DNA of 64,000 nt. Source: Serratia quinivorans (lineage in GTDB: Bacteria; Pseudomonadota; Gammaproteobacteria; Enterobacterales; Enterobacteriaceae). Shown here piece after piece: positions 1,599 through 19,086 of the stretch. The notes under the pieces were generated by a model, which saw only the letters and a list, made by a program, of their open reading frames with translations, was not told the origin of the DNA and made no database searches. The first letter of the stretch is position 1. Each line of letters opens with the position of its first letter. The position numbers and the translations under genes were made by a program. The stretch covers positions 124,001 to 188,000 of the forward strand of contig NZ_CAMKGL010000003.1 of NCBI RefSeq assembly GCF_946227985.1. The letters run 5' to 3'.

Positions 1599-1950
1599 AA
1601 CCGGATCCTTGTAGGGAAATTGGCGATGGTAACGTTCAGATATCAGGTGATAGTGCGTCGGTCTTGTGCCGTCGCGTTGTTATGGACTGACTATAGGGCT
1701 TGCCGAAGGCTTTGCGACCTCCGGTATTTTCGTTTCATTATGGAACATTACTTTACCCATAACGTTTCATAATGAAACTCTGTCGAGGCTTTTTTAGCCG
1801 GTAAAGCGAACTGGCGCACAACCCAACGTATAGCTGCGTAAAGAGTGGATTCCGTAGGCATTTCAGCTTTAATTTTGACCATCTTTACCCTATCCTTACC
1901 GCCATTACTGGGAATGGGCGAATACAGCCCGACTGATGGGATGAATAACG
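1599..1950. promoter_or_regulatory. gldA-ygiB divergent intergenic region with two palindromes
   Basis: The 352-bp gap between the divergent genes gldA and ygiB holds two related 15-bp palindromes. GTTTCATAATGAAAC lies at 1764-1778 and is a perfect inverted repeat around a central A. GTTTCATTATGGAAC lies at 1732-1746 and differs by one arm base. Their starts are 32 bp apart, about three helical turns, which suits a dimer pair on one face of the DNA. They lie closer to gldA than to ygiB. The cognate regulator is not in the window. No other clear element was seen in the gap. Confidence 0.5.
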
Positions 1951-2613
1951 ATGAAACGGACAAAAAACATCAACCGAGAGACGTTCCGCAAATCCTGGCG
2001 CGACTACCGCGTTGCGCCCGTAGCCTTGGCGATCAGCGCCGTCTTTATGCTGGCCAGCTGCGAAAAGAGCGATGAAACGGTTTCTATGTATCAAAATGCC
2101 GACGACTGTTCGCGCACTAACCCCTCGATGAGCGAGCAGTGCACCACGGCCTATAACAACGCCCTGAAAGAAGCCGCAAAAACCGCACCAAAATACGCAA
2201 CTCGCGAAGACTGTGTCGCCGAGTTCGGTGAAGCACAGTGTACTCAGGCACCCGCCCCGGCACAGGCCGGCATGGCTGCAGAGTCACAGAGCAGCGGCAG
2301 CTTCTGGATGCCGCTGATGGCGGGCTACATGATGGGCCGTATGATGGGCGGCTCCGGCTTTGCTCAGCAACCGCTGTTCACCTCTAAAAACGCCGCCAGC
2401 CCGGCCAACGGCAAATTCGTTGATGCCTCCGGCAAGAGCTACGGTCCGGCCACCGCAGGCGGCCGTACCATGACGGTGCCAAAAACCGCCATGGCACCGA
2501 AACCGGCAGTGACCAATACCGTCACCCGTGGTGGCTTTGGCGAATCCGTCGCCAAGCAGACCAGCATGCAGCGCAGCAGCGCGACCTCCAGCTCACGCAG
2601 CATGGGCGGTTAA
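1951..2613 (+). CDS. ygiB: DUF1190 family lipoprotein YgiB
   Basis: This 220-residue protein matches E. coli YgiB (UPF0441/DUF1190) nearly end to end. After a basic N-terminus a hydrophobic segment ends in LASC at about 33-36, a plausible lipobox that would anchor it as a lipoprotein. The middle has a Met- and Gly-rich stretch ([12 protein letters not shown]), and the C-terminus is Ser/Gly rich. Biochemical function is unknown. ygiC starts 3 bp after the stop, so the two are co-transcribed, as in E. coli, where they are often linked to tolC; tolC is not visible here. Confidence 0.93.
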
Positions 2614-2616
2614 TGC

Positions 2617-3777
2617 ATGAAACGCGTTGCGATCACCGAGCGCCCGGACTGGCGCGAAAAGGCCACCGAATTCGGCTTCCGCTTCCACACCATGTATGGC
2701 GAACCCTACTGGTGTGAGGACGCCTATTACCAATTCACGCTGGCGCAGATTGAAGAAATTGAAAATGCCACCGCTGAGTTGCACCAGATGTGCCTGCAGG
2801 TGGTGGAGAAAGTGGTCGGCAGCGATGCGCTGATGACCAAGTTCCGCATCCCGAAACACACCTGGGAGTTCGTACGCAGCTCATGGCGTACCAGCCAGCC
2901 GTCGCTGTATTCACGTCTCGATCTGGCCTACGACGGTATCAATCCGCCCAAGCTGCTGGAAAACAACGCCGATACCCCGACCTCGCTGTATGAAGCGGCC
3001 TTTTTCCAATGGTTGTGGCTGGAAGACCAGATCAACGCCGGCAAGCTCAGCCCGGAGTCCGATCAGTACAACAGTCTGCAGGAAAAACTGATCGAGCGTT
3101 TCGCCGATCTGAAAGCACACCACGGTTTCGGCCTGCTGCACCTGGCCTGTTGCCAGGACAGCGAGGAAGATCGCGGTACCGTGCAATATCTGCAGGACTG
3201 CGCGCTGGAAGCCGGAGTCCCGACCGAGTTCCTGTTTATGGAAGAGATTGGTCTGGGCGAAAAGGGCCAGTTTACCGACCTGCAAAATCAGGTTATCGGT
3301 AATCTGTTCAAGCTATACCCGTGGGAATTCATGCTGCGCGAGATGTTTTCCACCAAGCTGGAAGATGCCGGCGTGCGCTGGCTGGAGCCGGCGTGGAAAA
3401 GCATTATCTCCAATAAGGCCCTGCTGCCGATGCTGTGGGAAATGTTCCCGGATCACCCGAATCTGCTGGCCTCTTACTTTGCAGAAGACGATCATCCACA
3501 GCTCGATCACTACGTCACCAAGCCGCTGTTCTCACGCGAAGGCGCCAATATCCAGATCGTGCAGAACGGTCAGGAAGTCGCGCGCGTTGACGGCCCTTAC
3601 GGCGAAGAAGGCATGATCGTGCAGCAGTTCCACCCGCTGCCACAGTTCGAAGGCAGCTATACGCTGATCGGCAGTTGGCTGGTTGACGATCAACCCTGCG
3701 GTATTGGTCTGCGTGAAGATCGTGAGCTGATCACCCAGGATCTGTCGCGTTTCTACCCGCACATCATCCTCGGCTAA
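2617..3777 (+). CDS. ygiC: Glutathionylspermidine synthase-like ATP-grasp protein YgiC
   Basis: 386 residues, the usual length for the YgiC/YjfC group. It belongs to the ATP-grasp family of the glutathionylspermidine synthetase C-terminal domain and lacks the amidase half of the bifunctional Gsp enzyme. Recognisable stretches are [16 protein letters not shown] near 112-127 and the C-terminal nucleotide-binding part with [12 protein letters not shown] near 335. The family predicts ATP-dependent ligation of a carboxylate to an amine, but the substrate of YgiC is not settled. It is translated right after ygiB and ends at a strong hairpin. The accessory sugar block starts just beyond. Confidence 0.92.
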
Positions 3778-3798
3778 CGATTAAATTGGTTGATATCA

Positions 3799-3824
3799 AG
3801 CGCGATTATATCGCGCTTTTTTTA
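3799..3824 (+). terminator. Intrinsic terminator of ygiBC
   Basis: A GCGCGAT/ATCGCGC stem (3801-3817) with a 3-nt loop is followed by seven T. It closes the ygiBC operon and marks the left boundary of the sugar block. Confidence 0.85.
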
Positions 3825-3835
3825 TGCTTTCCGGC

Positions 3836-3864
3836 TAGTGATTAATCGATTAACCTTTTATACT
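3836..3864 (+). promoter_or_regulatory. LacI-family operator and promoter of the cupin-isomerase genes
   Basis: GATTAATCGATTAACCTT at 3840-3857 contains the perfect palindrome TTAATCGATTAA (3842-3853). The same 18 bp occurs at 9675-9692, before the isomerase-PTS operon. A TATACT at 3859-3864 is a likely -10 box, which puts the operator in the -35/-10 spacer, a standard repressor position. The LacI-family regulator at 9855-10880 is the obvious candidate to bind it; that is inference. Confidence 0.75.
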
Positions 3865-3900
3865 CGAAGCGTCTGTTCTCCTCGGGCGGAGCAACCAGAT

Positions 3901-4464
3901 ATGAAACTGACTTCCATTATTCCACCGCAGGTCAACCTGGCCGACGGATGCTTTACCGCAGCTGATATTCAACGGAAATCTACAACCCTGGCCAGTCTGG
4001 CTGGGATCTTTGCCGATCCTGCCGCATGGCGGGCGATGCCGGCAGAACTTGCCGTGTATCAGGTAGAAATGCTGCCTTCCGTACAACAGGAGGGTGAGCT
4101 GTTTGTAGGCACCACTCACCTGCAACCTGGCCGGGTAGGCAACGAATTCTTTATGACCCGCGGGCATTTTCATCAACGCCCCGAACAGGCGGAATTCTAT
4201 TTTGGCCTGCGTGGCCAGGGTTTGCTGCTGCTGCAACACCGCGACGGTGCTTGCAGGCTGGAACAGGTCTCCCCCGGCAGCGTTCACCATATTCCTTCCT
4301 TTACCGCCCACCGCCTGATCAACACCGGTACTGAGGTGCTGTCCGCACTGGCGGTTTGGCCAACGGTGGCGGGACACAACTACGATGCACTCCAGCCACA
4401 GGGCTTCAAACTGCGGGTGTTTGCCGACGGCAGCGGTTGGAAAACGGAGGCGCAATATGAGTGA
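3901..4464 (+). CDS. Cupin-type glucose-6-phosphate isomerase-like protein
   Basis: 187 residues with the single-cupin fold of the archaeal-type phosphoglucose isomerases (GPI family). The signature is intact: TRGHFH with His89 and His91, Glu98 in QAEFYFGLRGQG, and His137 in PSFTAHRLI. These fall one residue from the metal ligands of the Pyrococcus furiosus enzyme (His88, His90, Glu97, His136), and the lengths agree. It probably interconverts an aldose and a ketose 6-phosphate. The start is the ATG at 3901; a longer reading from 3790 would run through the operator and promoter. The next gene overlaps its end by 8 bp. The true substrate may not be glucose 6-phosphate. Confidence 0.85.
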   Translation: MKLTSIIPPQVNLADGCFTAADIQRKSTTLASLAGIFADPAAWRAMPAELAVYQVEMLPSVQQEGELFVGTTHLQPGRVGNEFFMTRGHFHQRPEQAEFYFGLRGQGLLLLQHRDGACRLEQVSPGSVHHIPSFTAHRLINTGTEVLSALAVWPTVAGHNYDALQPQGFKLRVFADGSGWKTEAQYE

Positions 4465-5239
4465 TTCGATGCTTAGATTTGGCCTGGATGTCTCCATTAG
4501 CGAGCATCCGATGGGGTTTGCCTATGGCGAAGAGGTGATTGGCCCCTTGCCGGAGATTCGGACGTTGGAACAAATCCGCCTCTCACTACGCGATCCCGAC
4601 TGCAGCGGGCCAGAGCAGGTCTATGCCATCGCCATGGACGTCGCCAAACAGCGGCATTTGGCTGAATTGAAAAAACGCATGTTGTTGTTCGGCATTGTCA
4701 CCTATGCCAAAGGCCAGTTGGGTCAGGAGCCGATACGCAGTCAGGGTCATGTGCACCGCATCAGCGTACACAGTGGCTGGTCACCGCCGGAGCTGTACGA
4801 GATCTGGCGAGGGAAGGCCATTATTTACATGCAAGAACGGGTGGAACATGAGCCGGGCCGCTGCTTTGCCGTGCATGCCGGCCCGGGCGAAAAGGTATTG
4901 GTACCACCAGGATGGGCGCACGCCACCATTTCCGCCGATGCCAATCAGCCGCTGACCTTCGCCGCCTGGTGCGATCGTGAATATGGCTTCGAATATGATG
5001 CAGTACGTGAGTACAAAGGGCTGGCTTGGTACCCGCTATTGCAGGGCAACCATATTATCTGGCAACAGAATCCACGATATCAATCCGGCAGGCTGCACGC
5101 CATCGGACCACGCCAATACCACGAGTTCGGCCTGAGTGATGCCCCCTTATACTCGCAGTTTGAAGCTGACCCGGCGCGCTTCCAGTTCATTTCCAAACCC
5201 GGCAGCGTAGCGGAAAAATGGCAACGATTTGAGCCGTAA
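4457..5239 (+). CDS. Second, larger cupin isomerase-like protein
   Basis: 260 residues, distantly related to the preceding cupin. It keeps a GHVH metal motif (His98, His100), acidic residues in PPELYEIWRGKA (Glu112/Glu115) and a downstream His155 in PPGWAHA, so a metal site looks preserved. It carries about 75 extra residues at both the N- and C-termini relative to a minimal cupin isomerase. GGAGG precedes the ATG at 4457, which overlaps the previous gene by 8 bp and implies translational coupling. It could be a second sugar-phosphate isomerase or an epimerase. I do not recognise a characterised orthologue. Confidence 0.75.
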   Translation: MSDSMLRFGLDVSISEHPMGFAYGEEVIGPLPEIRTLEQIRLSLRDPDCSGPEQVYAIAMDVAKQRHLAELKKRMLLFGIVTYAKGQLGQEPIRSQGHVHRISVHSGWSPPELYEIWRGKAIIYMQERVEHEPGRCFAVHAGPGEKVLVPPGWAHATISADANQPLTFAAWCDREYGFEYDAVREYKGLAWYPLLQGNHIIWQQNPRYQSGRLHAIGPRQYHEFGLSDAPLYSQFEADPARFQFISKPGSVAEKWQRFEP

Positions 5240-5247
5240 AAAAGAAC

Positions 5248-5267
5248 GGGGCGAATATATTCGCCCC
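5248..5267. terminator. Bidirectional terminator between the convergent sugar operons
   Basis: A perfect 20-bp inverted repeat, GGGGCGAATA/TATTCGCCCC, sits in the 49-bp gap between the convergent cupin genes and the PTS operon. T-runs are short, with AAAAAA upstream serving the minus strand. Confidence 0.7.
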
Positions 5268-5288
5268 TACGTGTCACTCATTGATAGT

Positions 5289-6110
5289 TTATGAGAACAA
5301 ACCGCAGGCCACCCCTGCCGCGGCCAATACCAGCAGCCCGAGCATCGCTTTCACCGGTGAAAGTCCGCGTTTGGCCATCAGATACCAGGTCGCCAGCACC
5401 ACGATCAACGGCATCAGGTTAGGAAAAATACCGTCCAGCATTTGTTGCAGGTGGATATTCACCCCGTCTTTGGTAACAAACTCCAGCCCAGTCCCCAGTT
5501 TGACGTAGCTCGCCGCTACGCCGCCCATGACGAACACCCCCAGCAGGGAAAGTGCCTCACGCAGCCGTGAGGACTTGCTGCTGACCAGCATCTCCACCGA
5601 GCCGGAGCCCATATGGTAGCCTTTCATAAACAGCCAGTAAGACCCCGGAATGACGATCAGGCTAAACGCGATGATGTAAAACAGCGGGCCAATCACACTG
5701 CCACCGGCCGCCAGCGCCATACCGATACTCAACAAAATCGGGATCAACATGCCCGGCACCATAGAGTCACCAATGCCGGCCACTGGCCCCATCAACCCCA
5801 CTTTGAGCGTGTTGATGGTTTCCCCGTCGATCGGCTCGCCGTTGGCGCGTTTTTCTTCCAGCCCAATCACCATGCCGTTAACAATCGCACCCAGCTGTGG
5901 CTCGGTATTGTAGAAAGAGGTATGACGGCGAATGGCTTCAATACGCTGCTGTTTATCCTGATACAATTTTTTCAGCGCCGGCATCATGCTCAGGCAAAAA
6001 CCGTAAGATTCCAGGCGCTCGAAGCTCATCGATGACAGGTTGTACATCATCCAGCTGCGCCAGCAACGACGCAGATCCTGCTTATTCAATTTAGGTGTTG
6101 GCGTATCCAT
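5289..6110 (-). CDS. PTS mannose/fructose/sorbose-family EIID component
   Basis: 273 residues, the normal size for EIID of the mannose-family PTS. With EIIC it forms the membrane translocator. The N-terminal cytoplasmic part contains the family segment SSMSFERLESYGFCLSMMP and the motif NTEPQLGAIVNGMVIGLEE. Hydrophobic segments follow, including GDSMVPGMLIPILLSIGMALA and a C-terminal helix near 225-270. It is the last gene of the operon and overlaps the EIIC stop by one base. The start ATG is at 6110. Substrate specificity cannot be read from the sequence. Confidence 0.93.
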   Translation of the reverse strand: MDTPTPKLNKQDLRRCWRSWMMYNLSSMSFERLESYGFCLSMMPALKKLYQDKQQRIEAIRRHTSFYNTEPQLGAIVNGMVIGLEEKRANGEPIDGETINTLKVGLMGPVAGIGDSMVPGMLIPILLSIGMALAAGGSVIGPLFYIIAFSLIVIPGSYWLFMKGYHMGSGSVEMLVSSKSSRLREALSLLGVFVMGGVAASYVKLGTGLEFVTKDGVNIHLQQMLDGIFPNLMPLIVVLATWYLMAKRGLSPVKAMLGLLVLAAAGVACGLFS

Positions 6111-6910
6111 TAGAATTCATCCTCATCATCAGCCTGAGGCGCGGCCTGTGCGGCGGCCACCTGCGGCTCTGGCTTATAGTTGTAGTGAATCAGTGCCAGC
6201 AGCGCGCCGACAATCACCAGCGCCACCATATTCAGCTTGAGGAAAACAATGCAGATAAACCCCACCAGGAAGTAAATCAGCATGCTGTAGCTTTTAATAA
6301 TCTGTTTGAGAAGAATGGCGATGCCGACCGCAGGCAGAATGCCGCCCACCACGTTCATGGTGGTCAACACCAGCGCCGGCAGGCTATCCATAAAGGCGTT
6401 GATGTAGCGCGCCCCGAAAAACACCGCGATAAACGTCGGAATAAAACGCAGCAGGAAGTTGGTGACCTGCGGCCAGATGGCGCTATTGAGGTAAATACCT
6501 CGCTCATCGCCGCGCTCAACCGCCAAATCTGCACGGTGATTCCAGTAAGAATTGAGCACCATCATGGCGTTGAACAACACGGTCCCCATGATGCCGATAG
6601 TCGCCGCCAGCGCCACCGCCACCTCGGTTCCCTTACCGGAAAGAATGCCCAGCGCAATTGCCGGGAACGCCACAAAGTTGAGATCGGCCGGCATCGATCC
6701 GCCCGGTGTGACCATGGCGATATACACCGCCTGAACCGCAACACCGATGATAATGCCGGTCTGTACATCGCCGAGAATAGCCCCCACCAGCATGCCGGAA
6801 ACCAACGGGCGGCTGAGAATATACCAGCCTCCGGTCAGTCCCAGCAGCCAGGGGCTGCTCAGCGCACCGAGATAGCAAAGTATCCCGATAAGCGTCGCTT
6901 CAAACCACAT
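6110..6910 (-). CDS. PTS mannose/sorbose-family EIIC component
   Basis: 266 residues, an integral membrane permease of the mannose-family PTS. Several hydrophobic helices are visible, with the segments VSGMLVGAILGDVQTGIIIGVAVQ and TPGGSMPADLNFVAFPAIALGI typical of EIIC-Man/Sor, where small polar and Gly/Pro residues line the sugar path. The C-terminus is a short acidic tail. It lies between EIIB and EIID in the usual B-C-D order and would work only with EIID. Confidence 0.93.
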   Translation of the reverse strand: MWFEATLIGILCYLGALSSPWLLGLTGGWYILSRPLVSGMLVGAILGDVQTGIIIGVAVQAVYIAMVTPGGSMPADLNFVAFPAIALGILSGKGTEVAVALAATIGIMGTVLFNAMMVLNSYWNHRADLAVERGDERGIYLNSAIWPQVTNFLLRFIPTFIAVFFGARYINAFMDSLPALVLTTMNVVGGILPAVGIAILLKQIIKSYSMLIYFLVGFICIVFLKLNMVALVIVGALLALIHYNYKPEPQVAAAQAAPQADDEDEF

Positions 6911-6932
6911 AGTTCACTCCTGCCGTTCAGGC

Positions 6933-7427
6933 TTATTTGAGTTTCTTTTTAGCGTCCAGCCAGCTGAAATGACTGGCGTCAGGGACTAAACGGAATTCGA
7001 TGGCATGTCCCTGTTCAGTAAGGAAATCAAAGGCCTCCGCCTCTATCGTGCTTACCGATTGATTGGGGCCAATGGTCACCGTGTCCCTGCGGGCAGACAT
7101 CGGCCCGACGTTAATTTTCTTGTTACGATTACTCAGATCGATCCCTGCCTCTATCAACCTGCGCAGCGTGACCGGCGACTTGCCGATCACAAAGTACTGC
7201 TTGTCGCTGGCGATCACCTTAGGCAGCTTTTCTATCGCCTGCTGCACAGTAAACAGCCACACTTTAGTGTCCTGTACCGCCCCCTTCATCACCGATGACA
7301 GCAACGGATCTGCCGCCACCTCATCATCGATCGCCACAATACCGTCGCAAGGCAACTCCTTCGCCCAGCGGGTGACCAGCTGACCGTGAATGACCCGGTC
7401 GTCGATACGTACAAATGAAATGGCCAT
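6933..7427 (-). CDS. PTS mannose/sorbose-family EIIB component
   Basis: 164 residues, the cytoplasmic phosphocarrier that passes phosphate from EIIA to the incoming sugar. The N-terminus SFVRIDDRVIHGQLVTRW carries the phosphorylated His14 in the family motif R-[ILV]-D-x-R-x-[IV]-H-G-Q. Mannose-family EIIB proteins are phosphorylated on His, not Cys, in agreement. It is a separate polypeptide, unlike the EIIAB fusion ManX of E. coli. The start ATG is at 7427, 10 bp after the EIIA stop. Confidence 0.93.
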   Translation of the reverse strand: MAISFVRIDDRVIHGQLVTRWAKELPCDGIVAIDDEVAADPLLSSVMKGAVQDTKVWLFTVQQAIEKLPKVIASDKQYFVIGKSPVTLRRLIEAGIDLSNRNKKINVGPMSARRDTVTIGPNQSVSTIEAEAFDFLTEQGHAIEFRLVPDASHFSWLDAKKKLK

Positions 7428-7436
7428 CTTCTCTCC

Positions 7437-7865
7437 TCAGAAATCGTCCAATTGTGCCGTTACCGCCGGACGGGCAACGGCAATCGCCTCCCCCGCCAGC
7501 GCTACCAGCTCTTGAGCTGCCTGGTGAACGTCCTTTTCTTCCAGCAATTCGGCACTCATCAACAGCATCGGGAAATTCACGCCGGTCACCACGGCCATCG
7601 GCACCGGCGTTTGGGGATCAAAAGCGTGGCGACAGGCCACGTTATAGGGCGTGCCGCACAGCATGTCGCACAGCACCAGCACACCGTCCGCCCCTGCGCT
7701 CACCCGCTGCAATTCGTCAGCAAACGCCTGTTTAAAGGCTTCGATACCGGCACCTTCACTCAGGCCCACATGGCTGGTCCCCGGCAGATCACCGTAAACC
7801 ATACGTGCGCTGCTCATCAGCGCCTCGGCCAGCGGGCCATGGGAGGTCACTATCACTTTCAACAT
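7437..7865 (-). CDS. PTS mannose/sorbose-family EIIA component
   Basis: 142 residues, a stand-alone EIIA of the mannose family. The active-site His9 is in VIVTSHGPLAEALMSSA, equivalent to His10 of E. coli ManX. It receives phosphate from HPr and gives it to the EIIB encoded next. The segment LVLCDMLCGTPYNVA matches the conserved DLxGGTP region but has Cys in place of the first Gly. The gene lies five bases after the isomerase-domain gene. Confidence 0.92.
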   Translation of the reverse strand: MLKVIVTSHGPLAEALMSSARMVYGDLPGTSHVGLSEGAGIEAFKQAFADELQRVSAGADGVLVLCDMLCGTPYNVACRHAFDPQTPVPMAVVTGVNFPMLLMSAELLEEKDVHQAAQELVALAGEAIAVARPAVTAQLDDF

Positions 7866-7870
7866 AATGC

Positions 7871-9640
7871 TTATCCCCTTACCCAGGCTTTGATGGTGCC
7901 CAGGGTTTTGCCCAGGCTACGACCATGGGGGCTGATACGGTATGGCCCCACGGCGGCCGGTACGATAAAGGTTTCGGCGTAATGCACCACAAAGGGCGCG
8001 AAATGGCCTTCAGGGCTTTCAACCACCGCCTCTTCGCCTTCGACCAGATTCAACACGTTCACCCGGCCTTCGGTATGGTGCAGCACCGGTTCACTAAACC
8101 AGTGACGACGGGTTTCGATAAATTCGCGCTCGTGCAAACCGGTTCGCTCTTCCTGCCAGCCTGCCCCTTCGGCAACCTGTTCAATACGGTTCACCAGGTG
8201 CTCCTTCGCCCAGGTGGTGTCGCACTGCCAGTTGATCACCTGTTCGCCATGCTGCAGATGCACCGGGCGTGGCTGGCCATCTAACCCCAGGCGGCCCCAG
8301 TCCCACAGTTTGAAGGTGAAAATATAAGGTGTAGCGCTGATCTCCAGCACCATGGAGCCGGAGCCGGAACAATGCACCGTCCCTGCCGGGATCAGAAAAT
8401 GGTCGTGTTTACGCGCCGGGAAACGATTAACAAAACGCGGGTCATCGAAGGCCTTTTCACCTCTTTGGGCCGCGGCCAGGTCAGCCATCATCGCCTGCGG
8501 TTCGGTGCCGTTTTTCACGCCCAGGTACACCTCAGCCCCCGGCTCTGCCGCCAGAATGTAATAGCTTTCATCCTGGGTGTAATGCATACCGAAATGCTGC
8601 TGGATGTATTCCGTCAGCGGGTGCACCTGGAAGCTGAGATTTTGCCCACCGACGGTATCGAGCAGGTCAAAGCGGATCGGGAATTCGGCACCGAAACGGG
8701 CATGAACCCGCTCGCCCAGCAAGGGGCGGGGATATAACAACACCAAATCCTGTGAGGGGATCTCGACCCGGACGTCACCAAAACGCATTAGCAGGCTGTT
8801 TTCCTCGGGCACGCAGTCAAAACACCATGCATAGTTGGCTGCCGTCGGGTCGAGATCGAACTGTTGCTTCATCCACTGGCCGCCCCAAACGCCAGGGTCA
8901 AAAAAAGGCACTACGCGGAATGGGCGTTGGGTAGCCTGCTGCAACCCGGCATGGAAAGCCGCACCGCTCACCAGTTTGGGTTGGCCGGCCTGATTGGTGT
9001 CCAACACAAAATCGGCACGCTGCAGCAACGGGGTTTTATGACGATCGAAGACTCGCCATTCCACGAAGAAGGCTCGCTTGTAGCGGCGCAGCACATCTTC
9101 ATCCACATTATTCACCCCCCAGTTACCCAGTTCACCGCGGCGGAAACGCTGCTGGATTTCCCAGCGGGCCATATCGGCATACACCAAGATATCGGCTTCG
9201 ACGATCAGCGCCGCGCCCGGCCCATAAACCACCACCAGCCCACTGTCGACACGCGCAATTTGATCGCGCAATTGCTGGACGCGCTCAGCATCAAAAAACT
9301 CGGACATTTCATGGCACGACAGCACGCCAAACACGCGGTCATCCGTTAAATTGCGCTCAATCATCGCGTGAATGTGCGGCTCATCGTATTTGGCCGATTC
9401 GGCATTGACGCTACTGACCGGCTGCAGAGGATTAATAACATTCTCGACTAGCTCTGCCAGATTCACCCCATGGTAGCAATCAACGATCAACAGGGTTTTG
9501 CGCAGCTCTAAGGCGGCAATCTTACGGCTGACCGCCTCGGTCACTGCCTGCCACCCTTGCCAGGCGGCGTGGTCAAACCCCTGTACCGCCACTTCTGGAG
9601 ACTTGTCATAGCCGGTTGCTTTATGCTGTTGCTCTGTCAT
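7871..9640 (-). CDS. Two-domain protein: N-terminal P-loop-like domain plus type I mannose-6-phosphate isomerase
   Basis: 589 residues from the ATG at 9640, which has AGAAG upstream. An ATG at 9667 has no ribosome-binding site and lies next to the operator. The C-terminal half (about 245-589) is a class I phosphomannose isomerase: Gln338 and His340 in SFQVHP, Glu358 in DESYY and His423 in IPAGTVHCSGSGSMVLEIS supply the expected Q-H-E-H zinc set. The first 235 residues are not part of classical ManA. They look like a nucleotide-kinase-type alpha/beta domain (LLIVDCYHGVNLAEL; VVVYGPGAALIVEADILVYADMA) without a GxxxxGK[ST] P-loop. It leads the EIIA-B-C-D operon, so it probably converts the imported sugar phosphate. 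The N-terminal role is unknown. Confidence 0.85.
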   Translation of the reverse strand: MTEQQHKATGYDKSPEVAVQGFDHAAWQGWQAVTEAVSRKIAALELRKTLLIVDCYHGVNLAELVENVINPLQPVSSVNAESAKYDEPHIHAMIERNLTDDRVFGVLSCHEMSEFFDAERVQQLRDQIARVDSGLVVVYGPGAALIVEADILVYADMARWEIQQRFRRGELGNWGVNNVDEDVLRRYKRAFFVEWRVFDRHKTPLLQRADFVLDTNQAGQPKLVSGAAFHAGLQQATQRPFRVVPFFDPGVWGGQWMKQQFDLDPTAANYAWCFDCVPEENSLLMRFGDVRVEIPSQDLVLLYPRPLLGERVHARFGAEFPIRFDLLDTVGGQNLSFQVHPLTEYIQQHFGMHYTQDESYYILAAEPGAEVYLGVKNGTEPQAMMADLAAAQRGEKAFDDPRFVNRFPARKHDHFLIPAGTVHCSGSGSMVLEISATPYIFTFKLWDWGRLGLDGQPRPVHLQHGEQVINWQCDTTWAKEHLVNRIEQVAEGAGWQEERTGLHEREFIETRRHWFSEPVLHHTEGRVNVLNLVEGEEAVVESPEGHFAPFVVHYAETFIVPAAVGPYRISPHGRSLGKTLGTIKAWVRG

Positions 9641-9674
9641 ATTCTTCTGCCTATGAGCTGGATACATAGAAAAA

Positions 9675-9692
9675 GATTAATCGATTAACCTT
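9675..9692 (-). promoter_or_regulatory. LacI-family operator of the isomerase-PTS operon
   Basis: GATTAATCGATTAACCTT here is identical to the 18 bp at 3840-3857. It lies about 35 bp upstream of the isomerase-domain start. A related imperfect copy, GATTAACGAGATTAACCTC, follows at about 9706-9724. Confidence 0.75.
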
Positions 9693-9762
9693 GGGTTAAA
9701 TAGGCTGATTAACGAGATTAACCTCATACAATCGATAATAACCTCATAAAAAGCCGATATTT

Positions 9763-9778
9763 CGTGATGCCAATCACG
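9763..9778. promoter_or_regulatory. Candidate CRP site
   Basis: CGTGATGCCAATCACG is an inverted repeat that fits the CRP pattern TGTGA-N6-TCACA with one mismatch per half. It lies between the divergent PTS operon and regulator, where catabolite control of a PTS sugar system would be expected. Confidence 0.55.
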
Positions 9779-9803
9779 ATTTATTGGCGGAATTTTATGA
9801 AAT

Positions 9804-9823
9804 AAGGTTAATCGTTATACCTT
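9804..9823 (+). promoter_or_regulatory. Third, imperfect operator before the LacI-family gene
   Basis: AAGGTTAATCGTTATACCTT shares the AAGGTTAATCG half of the 18-bp operator and has AAGGT/ACCTT arms. It ends 31 bp before the regulator start, so it may mediate autoregulation. Confidence 0.5.
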
Positions 9824-9854
9824 GATGTGACAGTCGGTACCGACAGGAGATGAA

Positions 9855-10880
9855 ATGAGCACAATAACCTTGGCGGACGTCGCCGCGCACGCAAAAGTCT
9901 CCACCGCGACCGTATCGATGGTATTGCGCAATCGTGGCCGCATATCGGACGCCACCCGCAAGCGCGTGCTGAGCGCCATTGATGAGCTGGGCTATGTCTA
10001 CAATCAGACCGCCGCTAACCTGCGCAATCGCAGCAGCAATCAGGTCGGCCTGCTGCTGCACGACATCACCAATCCGTTTTATGCGGAGATGACCGCCGGG
10101 CTGAGCCAGGAAATGGAACGCCACCAGTTGATGCTGTTTCTGGCCAACAGCGAAGAGTCCGCCGACAGGCAGCAAAAATTTGTCGACTCCCTGCTGCAAA
10201 ATAATACCAGCGGCATGGTGCTGTGCGCCGCCCGGCAAACACCCCCGCTGTTTTTTGAAACGCTAAAGCGCCGCAAGATCCCGGCCATTATGGTGGTCCG
10301 GCCGGTAGCCGATGCGCACTTTGACTTTGTCGGCACCGATAACTTCCTGGGTACTCAATTAGCAACTCAGCATCTGCTGAGCCTGGGGCATCGTCATATC
10401 GCCTTTATCGGAGGATCGATTAGCTCGACTACCCGCGCACAGCGGCTGGGCGGCTACACCAGCAAGCTGGTAGAGCATGGTATCGCGGTCAACGGGGAGT
10501 GGATTGTGGGCAGTGAGGCCAGCCAGAGTTCCGGCGCCAAGAATGCGGAACAGCTGTTGAAAGCCCATCCGGAGATCACTGCGGCCTTATGCTATCAGGA
10601 CATTGTCGCGCTGGGGGTGATGCAGACATTGCGCAAACTCAACCGCCAGATTGGCCGTGATTTTGCGCTAATTGGTTTTGATGATATTACCGAAGCCTCG
10701 CTGGTACAGCCAGGCTTGACCACCGTATCGGTGGCTTCGCGCGAGATTGGCCGTAAAGCTGGAGAATTGTTGTACAGCCGTATTCAGGGCAATGATGAAC
10801 CACCCAAACGCATCATCCTGCCGCCTTCTTTGGTGATCCGCGAGTCCTGCGGTTTTGCCGATAAATCTACGCCGGCCTGA
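9855..10880 (+). CDS. LacI-family transcriptional regulator of the sugar block
   Basis: 341 residues. The LacI-type helix-turn-helix occupies about 4-50 (TLADVAAHAKVSTATVSMVLRN, then the hinge region ending in NRSSNQVGLLLHDITNPFYAE). The rest is a periplasmic-binding-protein-like effector domain, with the usual GFDDITEASLVQPGLTTV region near 267-284. It is divergent from the PTS operon. Three TTAATCG-type sites in the block, including the two identical operators, are the likely targets. The ligand is probably the sugar or its phosphate and is unknown. AGGAG precedes the ATG. Confidence 0.92.
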   Translation: MSTITLADVAAHAKVSTATVSMVLRNRGRISDATRKRVLSAIDELGYVYNQTAANLRNRSSNQVGLLLHDITNPFYAEMTAGLSQEMERHQLMLFLANSEESADRQQKFVDSLLQNNTSGMVLCAARQTPPLFFETLKRRKIPAIMVVRPVADAHFDFVGTDNFLGTQLATQHLLSLGHRHIAFIGGSISSTTRAQRLGGYTSKLVEHGIAVNGEWIVGSEASQSSGAKNAEQLLKAHPEITAALCYQDIVALGVMQTLRKLNRQIGRDFALIGFDDITEASLVQPGLTTVSVASREIGRKAGELLYSRIQGNDEPPKRIILPPSLVIRESCGFADKSTPA

Positions 10881-10891
10881 GACCGGCGTAG
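10867..10891. terminator. Hairpin between the regulator and ygiD
   Basis: CTACGCCGG/CCGGCGTAG, a 9-bp stem with a 7-nt loop, overlaps the regulator stop codon and serves the convergent pair. It closes the sugar block on the right. Confidence 0.65.
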
Positions 10892-10896
10892 AGCCT

Positions 10897-14724: not shown

Positions 14725-16155
14725 TTAACCACGCCCGTCTTTGATTGCCTTGATGATGTTGGTGGTCGACAGGCCGTCTTCAAAGTTCAGCACTTTGACG
14801 TCGCCGCCATTGGCCCATACTTCGGTACTACCGGCGATGTCTTCAGGCTTGTAGTCGCCCCCTTTCACCAGCAGATCTGGCAGGATATCGGCGATCAAGC
14901 GTTGTGGCGTGTCTTCTTCGAACGGCACCACCCAGTCCACCGCTTCCAACGCACCCAGTACAATCATGCGGTTTTCCAGCGCGTTGACCGGACGGGTTTC
15001 GCCTTTCAGGCGTTTAGTGGAAGCATCGCTGTTCACCGCCACAATCAGGCGATCGCCCAGCTTGCGGGCATTGGCCAGATAAGAGACGTGACCGGCATGC
15101 AGAATGTCGAAAATACCGTTGGTCATCACCACTTTTTCACCGCGCTGACGGGCTTGCGCCACGGCGGTTTTCAACTGGGCCTCGGTCATTACGCCAAAGC
15201 CGGTTTCGGCCCGGCCGCGTACCGCGTTTTCCAGTTCGATCGGAGAAACGGTCGAAGTCCCCAGTTTGCCTACCACCACGCCGGCAGCGGCATTGGCCAG
15301 GAAACAGGACTCTTCCAACGTGTTGCCGGCAGCCAGTGCCGCGGCCAACACGCCGATAACGGTATCGCCGGCACCGGTAACGTCAAACACTTCCTGCGCC
15401 AAAGTGGGTAAATGCAGCGGCGCGATGCCCGGCTGCAGCAGCGTCATGCCGTGCTCGGAACGGGTGACCAGCAGAGCGGAAAGCTCAAAGTCCGCCACCA
15501 GCTTCATGCCGCGTTCAACCAGTTCGGCTTCGTCTTTACAGTGGCCGACCACCGCTTCGAACTCGGACAGGTTTGGCGTCAGCAGTGTAGCACCGCGATA
15601 ACGCTCGAAATCAGATCCTTTAGGATCAATCAGCACCGGTACCTTGGCGGCACGCGCCAGTTGGATCATGCTCTGTACCTGACTCAGCGCGCCTTTGGCG
15701 TAATCTGACAGCACCAGTGCGCCAATCTGCGGCAGCGCCTGCTGAATACGTTCCAACAGCGGCTGTGGATCGACGTTTGAGAAGCCTTCTTCGAAATCGA
15801 GACGGATCAATTGCTGGTTACGCGACAGCACGCGCAGCTTGGTGATGGTCGGATGCGTCGGCACCGAGACAAAATCACAGCGCACGTTGACTTCATTGAG
15901 CTTGGCGCTCAGCGCTCGCGCGGCATCATCAATACCGGTCAGGCCGACCAGGCGTGAATTGGCGCCCAGCGAAGCAATGTTCATCGCCACGTTAGCCGCA
16001 CCGCCAGGACGCTCTTCAATGGTTTCAACCTTGACCACCGGCACCGGTGCTTCCGGTGAAATGCGGCTGGTCGGCCCATACCAATAGCGATCCAACATGA
16101 CGTCACCCACCACCAATACCCCGGCGCGGCGAAAATCAGGCAGTGTAACTTTCAT
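14725..16155 (-). CDS. hldE: Bifunctional heptose kinase/adenylyltransferase
   Basis: Makes ADP-glycero-manno-heptose for the LPS inner core, performing the 7-phosphate kinase and 1-phosphate adenylyltransferase steps. 476 residues, one shorter than E. coli HldE. The N-terminal ribokinase-like domain (1 to about 318) has [14 protein letters not shown] at 51-64 and the catalytic GAGD with Asp264. The C-terminal nucleotidyltransferase domain (about 344-476) has [12 protein letters not shown], with HxGH at 353-356. It is the last gene of the ygiF-glnE-hldE unit, 93 bp after glnE. Confidence 0.97.
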
Positions 16156-16248
16156 CCGATAACTCCAAAAAAGTACAAAATTTTAGTGGCGCAGATATTA
16201 CCACAGACGTCTGTAATAGCTGCAAAACGTATTGCGCAACCGGCCTGC

Positions 16249-19086
16249 TCAGCCCAGCCACTTCGCCCAACTGGCGCGGACTTGTTCACGTTCGGCGGCG
16301 AATTGCCCATTGCCAACCTTGCCGGAATGCTCCTGCAACGCCAGATGATGGATCTCGTCGCGCATGGTGACGTAAGCCTGGGTCAGTGCACGCGCTTCCT
16401 CTTCCGGCATGATGCCGTAATTGGCCATCAGTTCGAAAATTCGCACGTTATCAGACCAGCGCGTCAGGCGCGGTTCGGCCGCCGCATAGCCTAAGACCAG
16501 ATACTGGGCAATAAATTCGATATCGGTGATCCCGCCCTCGTCGGCTTTGATATCAAACAGTTCACGCTGCTTGTTACCAAGGTGATTGCGCATTTTCTCG
16601 CGCATCTCACGCACCTCGCGCTTCAACGTTTCCAGGTCACGCGGTTTGCACAGGATCTCCCGGCGGATAACATCAAACTGCTGATGCAACAACGGATCGC
16701 CATACACGATGCGTGCCCGCACCAGCGCCTGATGTTCCCAGGTCCAGGCTTCGCTCTGCTGATAATCGGCAAAGGCTTCGACGGTGCTGACCAACATGCC
16801 GGCCGCACCCGACGGCCGCAGGCGCGCGTCCACTTCATACAAAATACCGGACGAGGTACGGGTGCTGAACAGGTGCATGACCCGCTGTGCCAGACGCAGA
16901 TAAAACTGACGGCCGTCGATGCTGCGATCGCCGTCGGTCATCACCTCCGGCGGACAATCGAGGATAAACACCAGGTCAAGATCGGAACTGTAACCCAGTT
17001 CCCAACCGCCCAGCTTGCCGTAGCCAATCACCGCAAAACCGCGCCCTTCACGCTCCTGCAAATGGGTTGGCTGGCCATAGCGTGCGACCATATCGTTCCA
17101 CGCCTGCTGCACCACGGTGTCGATAATCGCCTCTGCCAGATAGGTGAGGTGATCGCTCACTTTCATTACCGGCAGTGCACCAGAGATATCCCCGGCGGCA
17201 ATACGCAGCTGCTGCGCCTGTTTGAATTGGCGTAGCGCTTCCAGCCTTTGCTCTTCGTCGTCCTCCGGCACCCGCAGCAGGTACTGGCGCAGCTCACTGC
17301 GGTAGGCATCCGGGGCCACCGGCTGATATAACGTCGCCGGCTCCAACAGCTCGTCGAGCAGCAGCGGATAACGCGACAGCTGGTTGGCTACCATCGGTGA
17401 AGCGGCACACAAACGAATCAGATGACTGAGCGCCGCATGGTATTCCACCAGCAGCTCAAGGTAGGTGGTACGGGTCACGATGCTCAGTAACAGCTGGGTC
17501 AGCCTGAGCAGTGCGGTCGGTGCATCCTGACGCGGACAGACTTCCGCCAGCAGGCGTGGCATCAATTGATCGAGCACATCACGACCGCGTGGGCCGATGG
17601 TGCGTTTGTCGACGTCATGACGAAACTCAGCGATGGTGCGCAGCATCTGCCTGCGCGCCTCTTCATCCAGATGTGGCGTCAACGGGGCCAGTTCATTCTC
17701 TTCCAGCGCGTCCTGCCACAGACTGTGATAGTGCTGATAATCGGGATCTTCACCAACATCCGGGCTATCGTCGCCAATCAGGTCGTTAAATACCGCCCTG
17801 ACCGCCTGCATATGGTTATCCAGCGCCAACAACAAGGCCGACCAATCGTCGAACCCCATACCCCAGGCCAGCCGCGCCTGGTCGAGTTCATCTTGCGGCA
17901 GCGTTTGCGTTTGTTGATCGGCAATCGCCTGCAGCAGGTTTTCCAGCCGGCGCAGGAACAGGTAGCTGGCACTCATCGCCTGTACCTGTTGCGGTTCCAG
18001 CAGCCCCAGTTCCCCCACCGCCTGTAGCGTCGGCAGCAGGGAACGCCCTTGCAACGCCGGCTCACGCCCACCGCGGATCAGTTGGAACACCTGGGTGATA
18101 AATTCAATTTCGCGGATGCCACCGGCACCCAGTTTGATATTGTCTTTTAGCCCGCGCCGCCGGACTTCACGAGCGATCATGCCTTTCATATTGCGCAATG
18201 ACTGGATCACGCTGAAATCGATATAGCGACGAAAGACAAAGGGCCGCAGGGTTTTGCGCAGCTCTTCGCTGTAGGCATCTTCCGACCCGCCCATCAGCCG
18301 CGCCTTGACCATCGCATAACGTTCCCAGTCACGGCCCTGCTCCTGATAATAATCCTCCAGCGCAGCGAAGCTCATCACCAGTGGGCCGCTGTCGCCGAAC
18401 GGCCGCAACCGCATGTCTACACGGTAGACAAAGCCGTCGATGGTTTGCTGATCCAGCGCTTTGATCAGCCGCTGCCCCAGACGGGTGAAGAACTGGGCGT
18501 TATCCAGCTCACGCCGCCCGCCCTGGGTCTGGCCGTTTTCAGGGTAGGCAAAGATCAGATCGATATCGGACGAGAAGTTCAGCTCACCACCGCCCAATTT
18601 CCCCATACCGAGGATCAGCAACGGCTGCGGCACGCCCTGAGCATTGCATGGGGTGCCCCACTCACGGCAGCAGGTTTGGTACAGCCAGTCGCGGGCACTG
18701 ACAATCAGCGTTTCCGCCAGCCCACTCAGCTGCAACAGCGTATCTTGCGTGCTGCATTGGCCCAGCGCCTGCGCCCAGGCGATCCTTACCAGCGTCTCGC
18801 GGCGAAACAGGCGCAGTGCACGCATCAGTTGCGCTTCGTCACGCACCTCTTCCAAATCATCCTGCAGCCAGGCGGCATAATGTTGCCACTCGTCCGCCAC
18901 CGGCGGTTGCTTGCGCAGCGTCGCCAGCCATTCCGGCTGGCTCTGCAACATGTCGCAGACAAAGTCGCTCGACGCCAAAACCCACTGTTCCTGACTGCTG
19001 AGCGCGCAGTCCGCGCCCTGAGTTTCCTGAAAACGCTGCACGATGTTCTGTGCCTGAGTCTGTAACGCTGCTGAAAGTGGCAACAT
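16249..19086 (-). CDS. glnE: Glutamine synthetase adenylyltransferase/deadenylylase
   Basis: Adds and removes AMP on glutamine synthetase according to nitrogen status, with the PII protein. 945 residues against 946 in E. coli. Two nucleotidyltransferase domains are evident: the N-terminal (deadenylylase) [18 protein letters not shown] near 165-182 and the C-terminal (adenylylase) [18 protein letters not shown] near 690-707, each with an intact G-S-x9-D-x-D pattern. It lies between ygiF (45 bp upstream) and hldE. Confidence 0.97.

Follow-up and report, generated by a model that had tools for sequence, protein, structure and literature searches.

An eight-gene block in a 64,000-nucleotide stretch of the Serratia quinivorans contig NZ_CAMKGL010000003.1 (hereafter the window) is tentatively read as a LacI-controlled, movable hexose regulon. 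In this reading, whose probability we put at about 0.45, a mannose-type core is accompanied by two cupin isomerases, CupA and CupB, which would take a second hexose 6-phosphate in parallel. The block encodes a mannose-family enzyme II (EII) of the phosphotransferase system (PTS) and a type I phosphomannose isomerase (PMI) fused to an N-terminal domain. All eight genes were found where an earlier note on this DNA had placed them: cupA-cupB on one strand, PMI-EIIA-EIIB-EIIC-EIID on the opposite strand, and a gene for a LacI-type regulator.

Gene content, conservation, co-location, operators, and metal ligands were read from the sequence, and folds were predicted; from these we infer the substrates, the order of reactions, the repression, the inducer, and all activities. 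The mannose-family EII would import a hexose and phosphorylate it at C6. The imported sugar is probably mannose or a close relative. The PMI fusion would act on an aldose 6-phosphate (that of mannose or a close epimer) and yield the corresponding ketose 6-phosphate, to be fed into glycolysis as fructose 6-phosphate. CupA and CupB would be metal-dependent aldose/ketose isomerases by which the module could also use a second hexose 6-phosphate present in the same glycosides. For CupA, the most likely activity is that of a glucose-6-phosphate isomerase (PGI), and CupB would act on another sugar. LacI would repress both transcription units via a common palindrome until the sugar or sugar phosphate appears.

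Conservation and Distribution of the Block

The relatives analyzed were the best 80 of 105 GTDB loci from a cupB search, sorted by gene content into 56 loci of the enterobacterial form and 24 loci from Bacteroidota. All eight genes are together in 51 of the 56 enterobacterial loci, which excludes a chance assembly. In the incomplete loci, lacI is not in the stretch (L012, L033, L048, and L051) or only the cupin genes are present (L017, whose flanks, as read by eye, contain ordinary genes).

Nine of the 56 loci match the window in having ygiC and ygiD on either side of the block; in a tenth, L012, ygiC is present. In the other setting, genes that we take to be ispH (38/56), dapB (30/56), and rihC (29/56) are in the same stretch. 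The gene order is identical in these two chromosomal settings; thus, the block travels as a whole. Judged from this arrangement, the block is a horizontally movable, self-contained regulon, and self-containment had already been claimed in the earlier note.

The block occurs across many genera of Enterobacterales. The distribution of cupB is patchy, with 4 of 148 genomes positive in an even draw of the order that included the Serratia genome. When 5,426 complete E. coli genomes were searched in distant mode with the PMI gene, none matched, and the use of an E. coli homologue as a guide was accordingly dropped. A family search found at least 7,999 PMI relatives, and among the best 120, all with a source name are from Enterobacterales. 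In a draw of Pseudomonadota, 5 of 150 genomes matched, and the only full-length match was in the Serratia genome itself. Viral contigs yielded 3 and 54 pattern matches, among which no relative was confirmed. The GTDB record L035, titled E. coli, carries the block, and L039, titled Chryseobacterium, carries the enterobacterial block and its flanks; both are probably mislabelled assemblies. Rhizobial loci with cupin-type glucose-6-phosphate isomerases were considered as a guide and rejected, as they are polyol or other ATP-binding cassette (ABC)-type clusters that give no clue for the block.

Putative Operators and Co-Regulation

The sequence TTAATCGATTAA is a 12-bp palindrome with exact copies before both units in the window. 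Before cupA, it is exact in 44 of the 56 enterobacterial loci and has at most one mismatch in 53. Before pmi, it is exact in 46 of 54 loci and has at most one mismatch in 53 of them. There are 91 exact copies in the 1.02 Mb of the 56 loci, compared with 0 in each of 20 first-order Markov controls. Two sites with at most one mismatch each are 121–131 bp apart in the pmi-lacI gap of 42 of the 51 loci that have both genes. The common palindrome, as a predicted operator, points to co-regulation of the two units; the lack of such co-regulation had been named in the earlier note as an observation that would speak against its proposal.

In the Serratia genome, the two exact sites of the window are accompanied by a single site with one mismatch (C1:1350899). 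This site is inside a coding stretch read as Mlc/NagC-like and was taken as a chance occurrence. By this count of sites, the regulon looks closed in the Serratia genome. In the loci L036 and L055, a further such site lies in the shared gap upstream of a divergent operon that encodes an EII and a glycoside hydrolase (GH) of family GH38. This EII-GH38 operon probably joins the regulon there.

Cupins, PMI Fusion, and PTS Components

CupA resembles archaeal PGI structures (best E-value 6.3e-37). The predicted model of CupB has a mean local confidence score (pLDDT) of 89.8, and its nearest structure is the P. furiosus PGI, with ~21% identity over the fold. Against the PF06560 cut-off of 20.7 bits, CupA scores 77.2 and CupB 62. 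The metal site, composed of HxH, E, and H, is kept in 71–72 of 72 CupA sequences and in 80 of 80 CupB sequences.

The PMI fold is present in the fusion protein, and the closest PMI structure is that from B. subtilis (1qwr). Q339, H341, E359, and H424 are invariant in 79 of 79 sequences; Gln, His, Glu, and His presumably correspond to the metal-ligand set of type I PMI. The claim of three isomerase-like metal cupins thus stands, with folds, profiles, and metal ligands all kept, as far as these predictions go. The structure comparison matched mainly the PMI part and not the N-terminal domain (window 8939–9643, ~235 amino acids), for which there is no significant Pfam match. Seven such N-terminal domains were scanned; four gave no match and three gave weak matches only (E 0.09 to 0.27).

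The mannose-family PTS is complete, with IIA, IIB, IIC, and IID all above the Pfam cut-offs. With regard to its substrate subfamily, no NCBIfam model reached the cut-off for any of the four EII subunits.

Association of the Cupins with PMI

The co-occurrence of the three isomerase genes was analyzed in an even draw of 395 Bacteroidota genomes, with the search centre included. A close PMI was defined by an E-value below 1e-200, a threshold set after viewing the matches (jump from 6e-262 to 1.4e-153), and any PMI-fusion relative by an E-value below 1e-60. The draw contains cupB in 5 genomes, a close PMI in 14, and any PMI-fusion relative in 29. All five cupB genomes have a close PMI on the same contig, at a distance from under 20 bp to ~2.1 kb, and nine of the 14 close-PMI genomes are without cupB. 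CupA was found in three of the five cupB genomes and was not found in the other two. In this sample, cupB always comes with PMI, but PMI can occur without cupB. CupA is the most variable member of the trio, which would be expected of a duplicate of a housekeeping PGI. From this pattern, the cupins are best read as an add-on to the mannose-type core. PMI and cupB are in the same locus in 22 of the 24 Bacteroidota loci from the cupB search.

At least two changes of the cupin label are required in the PMI tree. PMI from Photobacterium, Listeria, Deinococcus, and one Hymenobacter are located next to the enterobacterial cupin clade. The tree used 55 of 88 sequences; its cupin-bearing rows are mostly from the cupB search and its cupin-free rows from plasmids. 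The topology fits cupins gained more than once, or gained and lost, within the limits set by long branches and uneven sampling.

Gene Neighbourhoods Outside Enterobacterales

Based on labels taken from representatives, the 24 Bacteroidota cupin loci contain a major facilitator superfamily (MFS) sugar porter (19), a ROK kinase (15), a GntR-type regulator (11), GH2 (10), and GH38 (6). No EII was found in these loci. Together, the MFS porter and the ROK kinase preserve the logic of uptake plus phosphorylation. As a possible pointer to allose, the ROK subfamily was set aside: the ROK glucokinase model scored higher than the allose-kinase model for all five cupin-locus kinases and for one further kinase, and none came near a cut-off. 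In one Bacteroidota locus, the cupin trio is followed by a protein of the 3-keto-disaccharide hydrolase family (L079:10206–11573).

For cupin-free contexts, 9 of the 78 plasmid records that matched PMI were examined. Mannan-like contexts were observed in Parabacteroides (ROK, GH92, and GH38), Streptomyces (GH38, GH76, GH125, and ROK), Hymenobacter (MFS and GH92), and Flammeovirga (a fused ROK-PMI frame with MFS and GH92). Since cupin-free PMI relatives often adjoin such mannan-type genes, the PMI of the block is best read as an enzyme for mannose 6-phosphate or a close epimer. A Photobacterium record contains PMI, operator-like sites, a LacI 63% alike to a Serratia one, and an EIIABC-like protein (31% alike to its fructose-type counterpart in L036). 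No cupB was found in the record, which is part of a genome.

The Flammeovirga fusion of ROK kinase and PMI is a single frame of 886 amino acids (L107:7984–10644). Open frames of 886–905 amino acids surround PMI in several Bacteroidota genomes, suggesting that the ROK-PMI fusion recurs. In L153, a PMI frame of 788 amino acids is followed by a cupA-like gene, and cupB was not found in that genome.

Stretches were fetched around 16 of the 26 Bacteroidota PMI places without cupB nearby. By BLAST, a GH92-like frame is present in 11 of 15 cupin-free stretches and in none of four cupin-bearing stretches. Among the neighbour proteins, GH2, GH38, and GH92 account for 10, 6, and 2 of 73 in cupin loci. 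In cupin-free PMI loci, GH92 accounts for 11 of 54, and GH2 is not among the 25 families shown. These sets used 73 of 79 proteins for cupin loci (a ClpB-like protein of L079, two of L087, and three of L088 were dropped) and 54 of 58 for cupin-free loci (two of L153, which has cupA, and two of L107 were dropped). L151, where there is no anchor, is in neither set. The counts include repeated related lineages and do not represent independent events. Other cupin loci have GH31, GH27, GH51, GH127, or a sulfatase. One Parabacteroides cluster is composed of cupA, ROK, cupB, MFS, a cellulase-like protein, and GH2 with no adjoining PMI, and the same strain has PMI in a separate mannan-like cluster. Because the hydrolases differ, GH2 and GH38 with the cupins versus GH92 without them, it is likely that the cupin loci handle a second sugar.

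Glycosidases and Additional EII in Enterobacterial Relatives

GH38 adjoins the block in six of the 56 loci. A fructose-type EII frame is present in five of these, two of them cut by the stretch end. In L033, two frames were read by eye as a split EII, and the called frames of GH38 and PMI overlap. GH1 and a cellobiose-type IIC are inside the block in two of the 56 loci, L036 and L045. Profile scans among these relatives covered the L036 proteins. These GH1 and GH38 genes possibly supply gluco- and manno-type 6-phosphates. The absence of a dedicated hydrolase, claimed for the block in the earlier note, does not extend to the wider regulon, as seven of the 56 relatives add a glycosidase with a PTS component. 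Superficieibacter L036 has two copies of the PMI fusion (1774–3519 and 15222–16970), one in an EII-GH38-PMI run and the other in the main block.

Evaluation of the Proposed Function and Alternatives

Several observations weigh against a mannose-type core with parallel cupins. The main argument is the redundancy of the genome. Besides a normal PGI, the Serratia genome encodes a second type I PMI and a further two mannose-family IICs; thus, plain mannose or glucose would make the block redundant, and the true substrate would be neither. With cupB so strictly tied to PMI, a series route is a better fit than a parallel route. All 72 CupA sequences carry Trp in place of an archaeal Tyr. In PMI, Gln357 and Lys445 replace the Lys and Arg of the B. 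subtilis enzyme; a Lys two residues before the metal Glu, and the Arg, are presumably active-site residues of type I PMI. Gln357 is present in 12 of 12 and Lys445 in 11 of 12 members of a wider PMI set that includes mannan-associated ones, so these residues do not separate cupin loci from others. In four of the nine plasmid records, the PMI context is not clearly mannan-like. In Deinococcus and Arthrobacter, PMI is accompanied by an ABC importer and ROK, with no annotated mannosidases. In Listeria, it adjoins a GntR gene, with a fructose-type PTS ~5 kb away. Another Hymenobacter PMI is with ROK, MFS, Sus genes, DUF4185, and an esterase. The cupin-free stretches L150, L154, L156, and L165 gave no GH92-like frame by BLAST. 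The scarcity of GH92 in cupin loci relative to cupin-free loci suggests that the sugar of the cupin loci may not be plain mannose.

An unlikely alternative that accounts for part of these observations is that altrose, allose, or another C3-epimer hexose is processed in series. PMI would yield psicose 6-phosphate, CupB would convert it to a 3-hexulose 6-phosphate, and CupA would form fructose 6-phosphate, together replacing AlsE-type epimerases. One pathway would need just such a constant proximity of cupB and PMI as is observed in the Bacteroidota genomes and loci. The repeated change of the cupin label on the PMI tree, the unlike hydrolase sets of cupin and cupin-free loci, and a distant cupB relative that adjoins a gene annotated as 6-phospho-3-hexuloisomerase are also consistent with it. 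However, that hxl-associated cupin is only ~25% alike to CupB, CupA was not found in two of the five sampled cupB genomes, and the PMI family is elsewhere often in mannan settings. To our knowledge, such carbonyl-migration chemistry is not known for this enzyme family. The earlier note had proposed an unusual aldose or ketose passing through at least two serial isomerisations. This proposal is not supported in that form, because the PMI family is often alone in mannan-type loci, CupA is not constant, and some relatives add hydrolases.

Dedicated use of mannosides or glucosides is likewise considered unlikely. In that case, the EII for free sugar would be secondary, GH38 and GH1 phosphoglycosidases would yield the hexose 6-phosphates, and the isomerases would be an insulated duplicate of the central enzymes. 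GH38 and an EII beside the block in relatives, the operators of L036 and L055 in the divergent gap, and GH1 with the cellobiose IIC inside the block are in agreement with this. However, 49 of the 56 loci and the window block showed neither a GH38 nor a GH1 of these kinds, and the Serratia genome holds just two exact operators and the one-mismatch site in the Mlc/NagC-like gene.

The most far-reaching form of the series route is about as unlikely. The three metal cupins would perform serial carbonyl migration through aldose, 2-ketose, 3-ketose, and 2-ketose 6-phosphates and so epimerise a rare hexose at C3 with no epimerase involved, in a pathway that may have arisen repeatedly around the same PMI family. 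A role for one or both cupins in sensing or mutarotation of sugar phosphates, instead of pathway catalysis, is quite improbable; the divergence of CupB from the P. furiosus PGI and the occasional absence of CupA would allow it, but the four metal ligands, invariant in CupB and nearly so in CupA, fit catalysis. Routes through 3-ketoglucose were dropped, as isomerases alone cannot alter the oxidation level.

Comparison with Known Systems

The mannose operon of the B. subtilis type, which we take to be manPA (EII plus PMI) with a fructose-family EII, likewise combines PTS uptake as a hexose 6-phosphate with a type I PMI. Unlike that operon, the block has a mannose-family EII, a LacI regulator, an extra N-terminal PMI domain, and two cupins. 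The cupins share the fold and the metal ligands HxH, E, and H with the cupin-type PGI of P. furiosus and T. litoralis. They differ from it in the Trp of CupA described above and in the greater length of CupB, which has an insertion between HxH and E.

Some relatives resemble E. coli mngAB, a PTS for 2-O-alpha-mannosylglycerate with a GH38 hydrolase, in having GH38 and a fructose-type EII next to the block. However, the L036 proteins are far under the curated cut-offs (641 vs. 1138 and 445 vs. 763 bits), and the window block has no MngA/MngB equivalogs. The same PMI-fusion family occurs in the alpha-mannan-type loci of Bacteroidota and Streptomyces, where it is paired with a ROK kinase or an importer. 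Unlike the block, these loci have GH92, GH76, or GH125, and no cupins are annotated in those stretches.

A cluster of a ptsG-like gene, a cupin gene, hxlB, and hxlA in Salmonella and E. coli also combines a PTS with a cupB-like cupin, and adds an annotated hexulose phosphate isomerase. It differs in its glucose-type EII (by annotation), in the low similarity of its cupin noted above, and in having no PMI in the stretch. In the annotated Salmonella plasmid (L090:6171–9906), the glucose-type EIIBC, the cupB-like cupin, hxlB, and hxlA are in a row, and an E. coli record (L089:6319–9906) has frames alike to this row. This cluster is possibly a separate sugar pathway via 3-hexulose phosphate.

Among the matches listed in the openly licensed literature, there is no characterised locus with this gene set, although a paper could exist. 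We presume that the cupin PGIs of Salmonella and Ensifer have been characterised; the literature search did not confirm this. The block can be classed with the PTS hexose operons, as a form with added cupins. It represents a tightly regulated sugar module across Enterobacterales genera whose substrate is not named in the papers among the matches listed. Should CupB prove to have a new activity, part of a family whose only annotation is glucose-6-phosphate isomerase family would gain a function, and a PMI annotation that masks a second sugar would be corrected.

Layout of the Block

The features of the block are listed in Table 1. The earlier note had described the block as bounded by terminators on both sides. 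On the left, a hairpin with a T-run is present. On the right, the inverted repeat near 10867, which overlaps the lacI stop, is absent from the terminator-like sites. There are 12 terminator-like sites in the window, and they are weak evidence because 8.7 are expected in shuffles. The reading frames of cupA and cupB overlap by 8 nucleotides.

Table 1. Features of the block, in window coordinates.
Feature	Position	Strand	Remarks
Terminator-like hairpin, left block border	3798..3818	+	9-pair stem and T-run; just behind ygiC
Predicted operator palindrome TTAATCGATTAA before cupA	3842..3853		Exact copy
cupA, 187 amino acids, PF06560 cupin glucose-6-phosphate isomerase family	3901..4464	+	PF06560 1.3e-21
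cupB, 260 amino acids, divergent PF06560 cupin, C-terminal extension	4457..5239	+	PF06560 5.6e-17
Terminator-like hairpin between convergent units	5248..5267	-	8-pair stem and T-run
EIID, mannose-family PTS	5289..6110	-	PF03613 1.3e-88
EIIC, mannose-family PTS	6110..6910	-	PF03609 1.5e-64
EIIB, mannose-family PTS	6933..7427	-	PF03830 4.1e-38
EIIA, mannose-family PTS	7437..7865	-	PF03610 5.5e-18
PMI fusion, N-terminal domain (~235 amino acids) and type I PMI domain	7871..9640	-	
Predicted operator palindrome TTAATCGATTAA before PMI gene	9677..9688		Exact copy
Degenerate third operator-like site before lacI	9806..9821		3 mismatches to 14-mer
lacI, LacI-family regulator, 341 amino acids	9855..10880	+	PF00356 and PF00532

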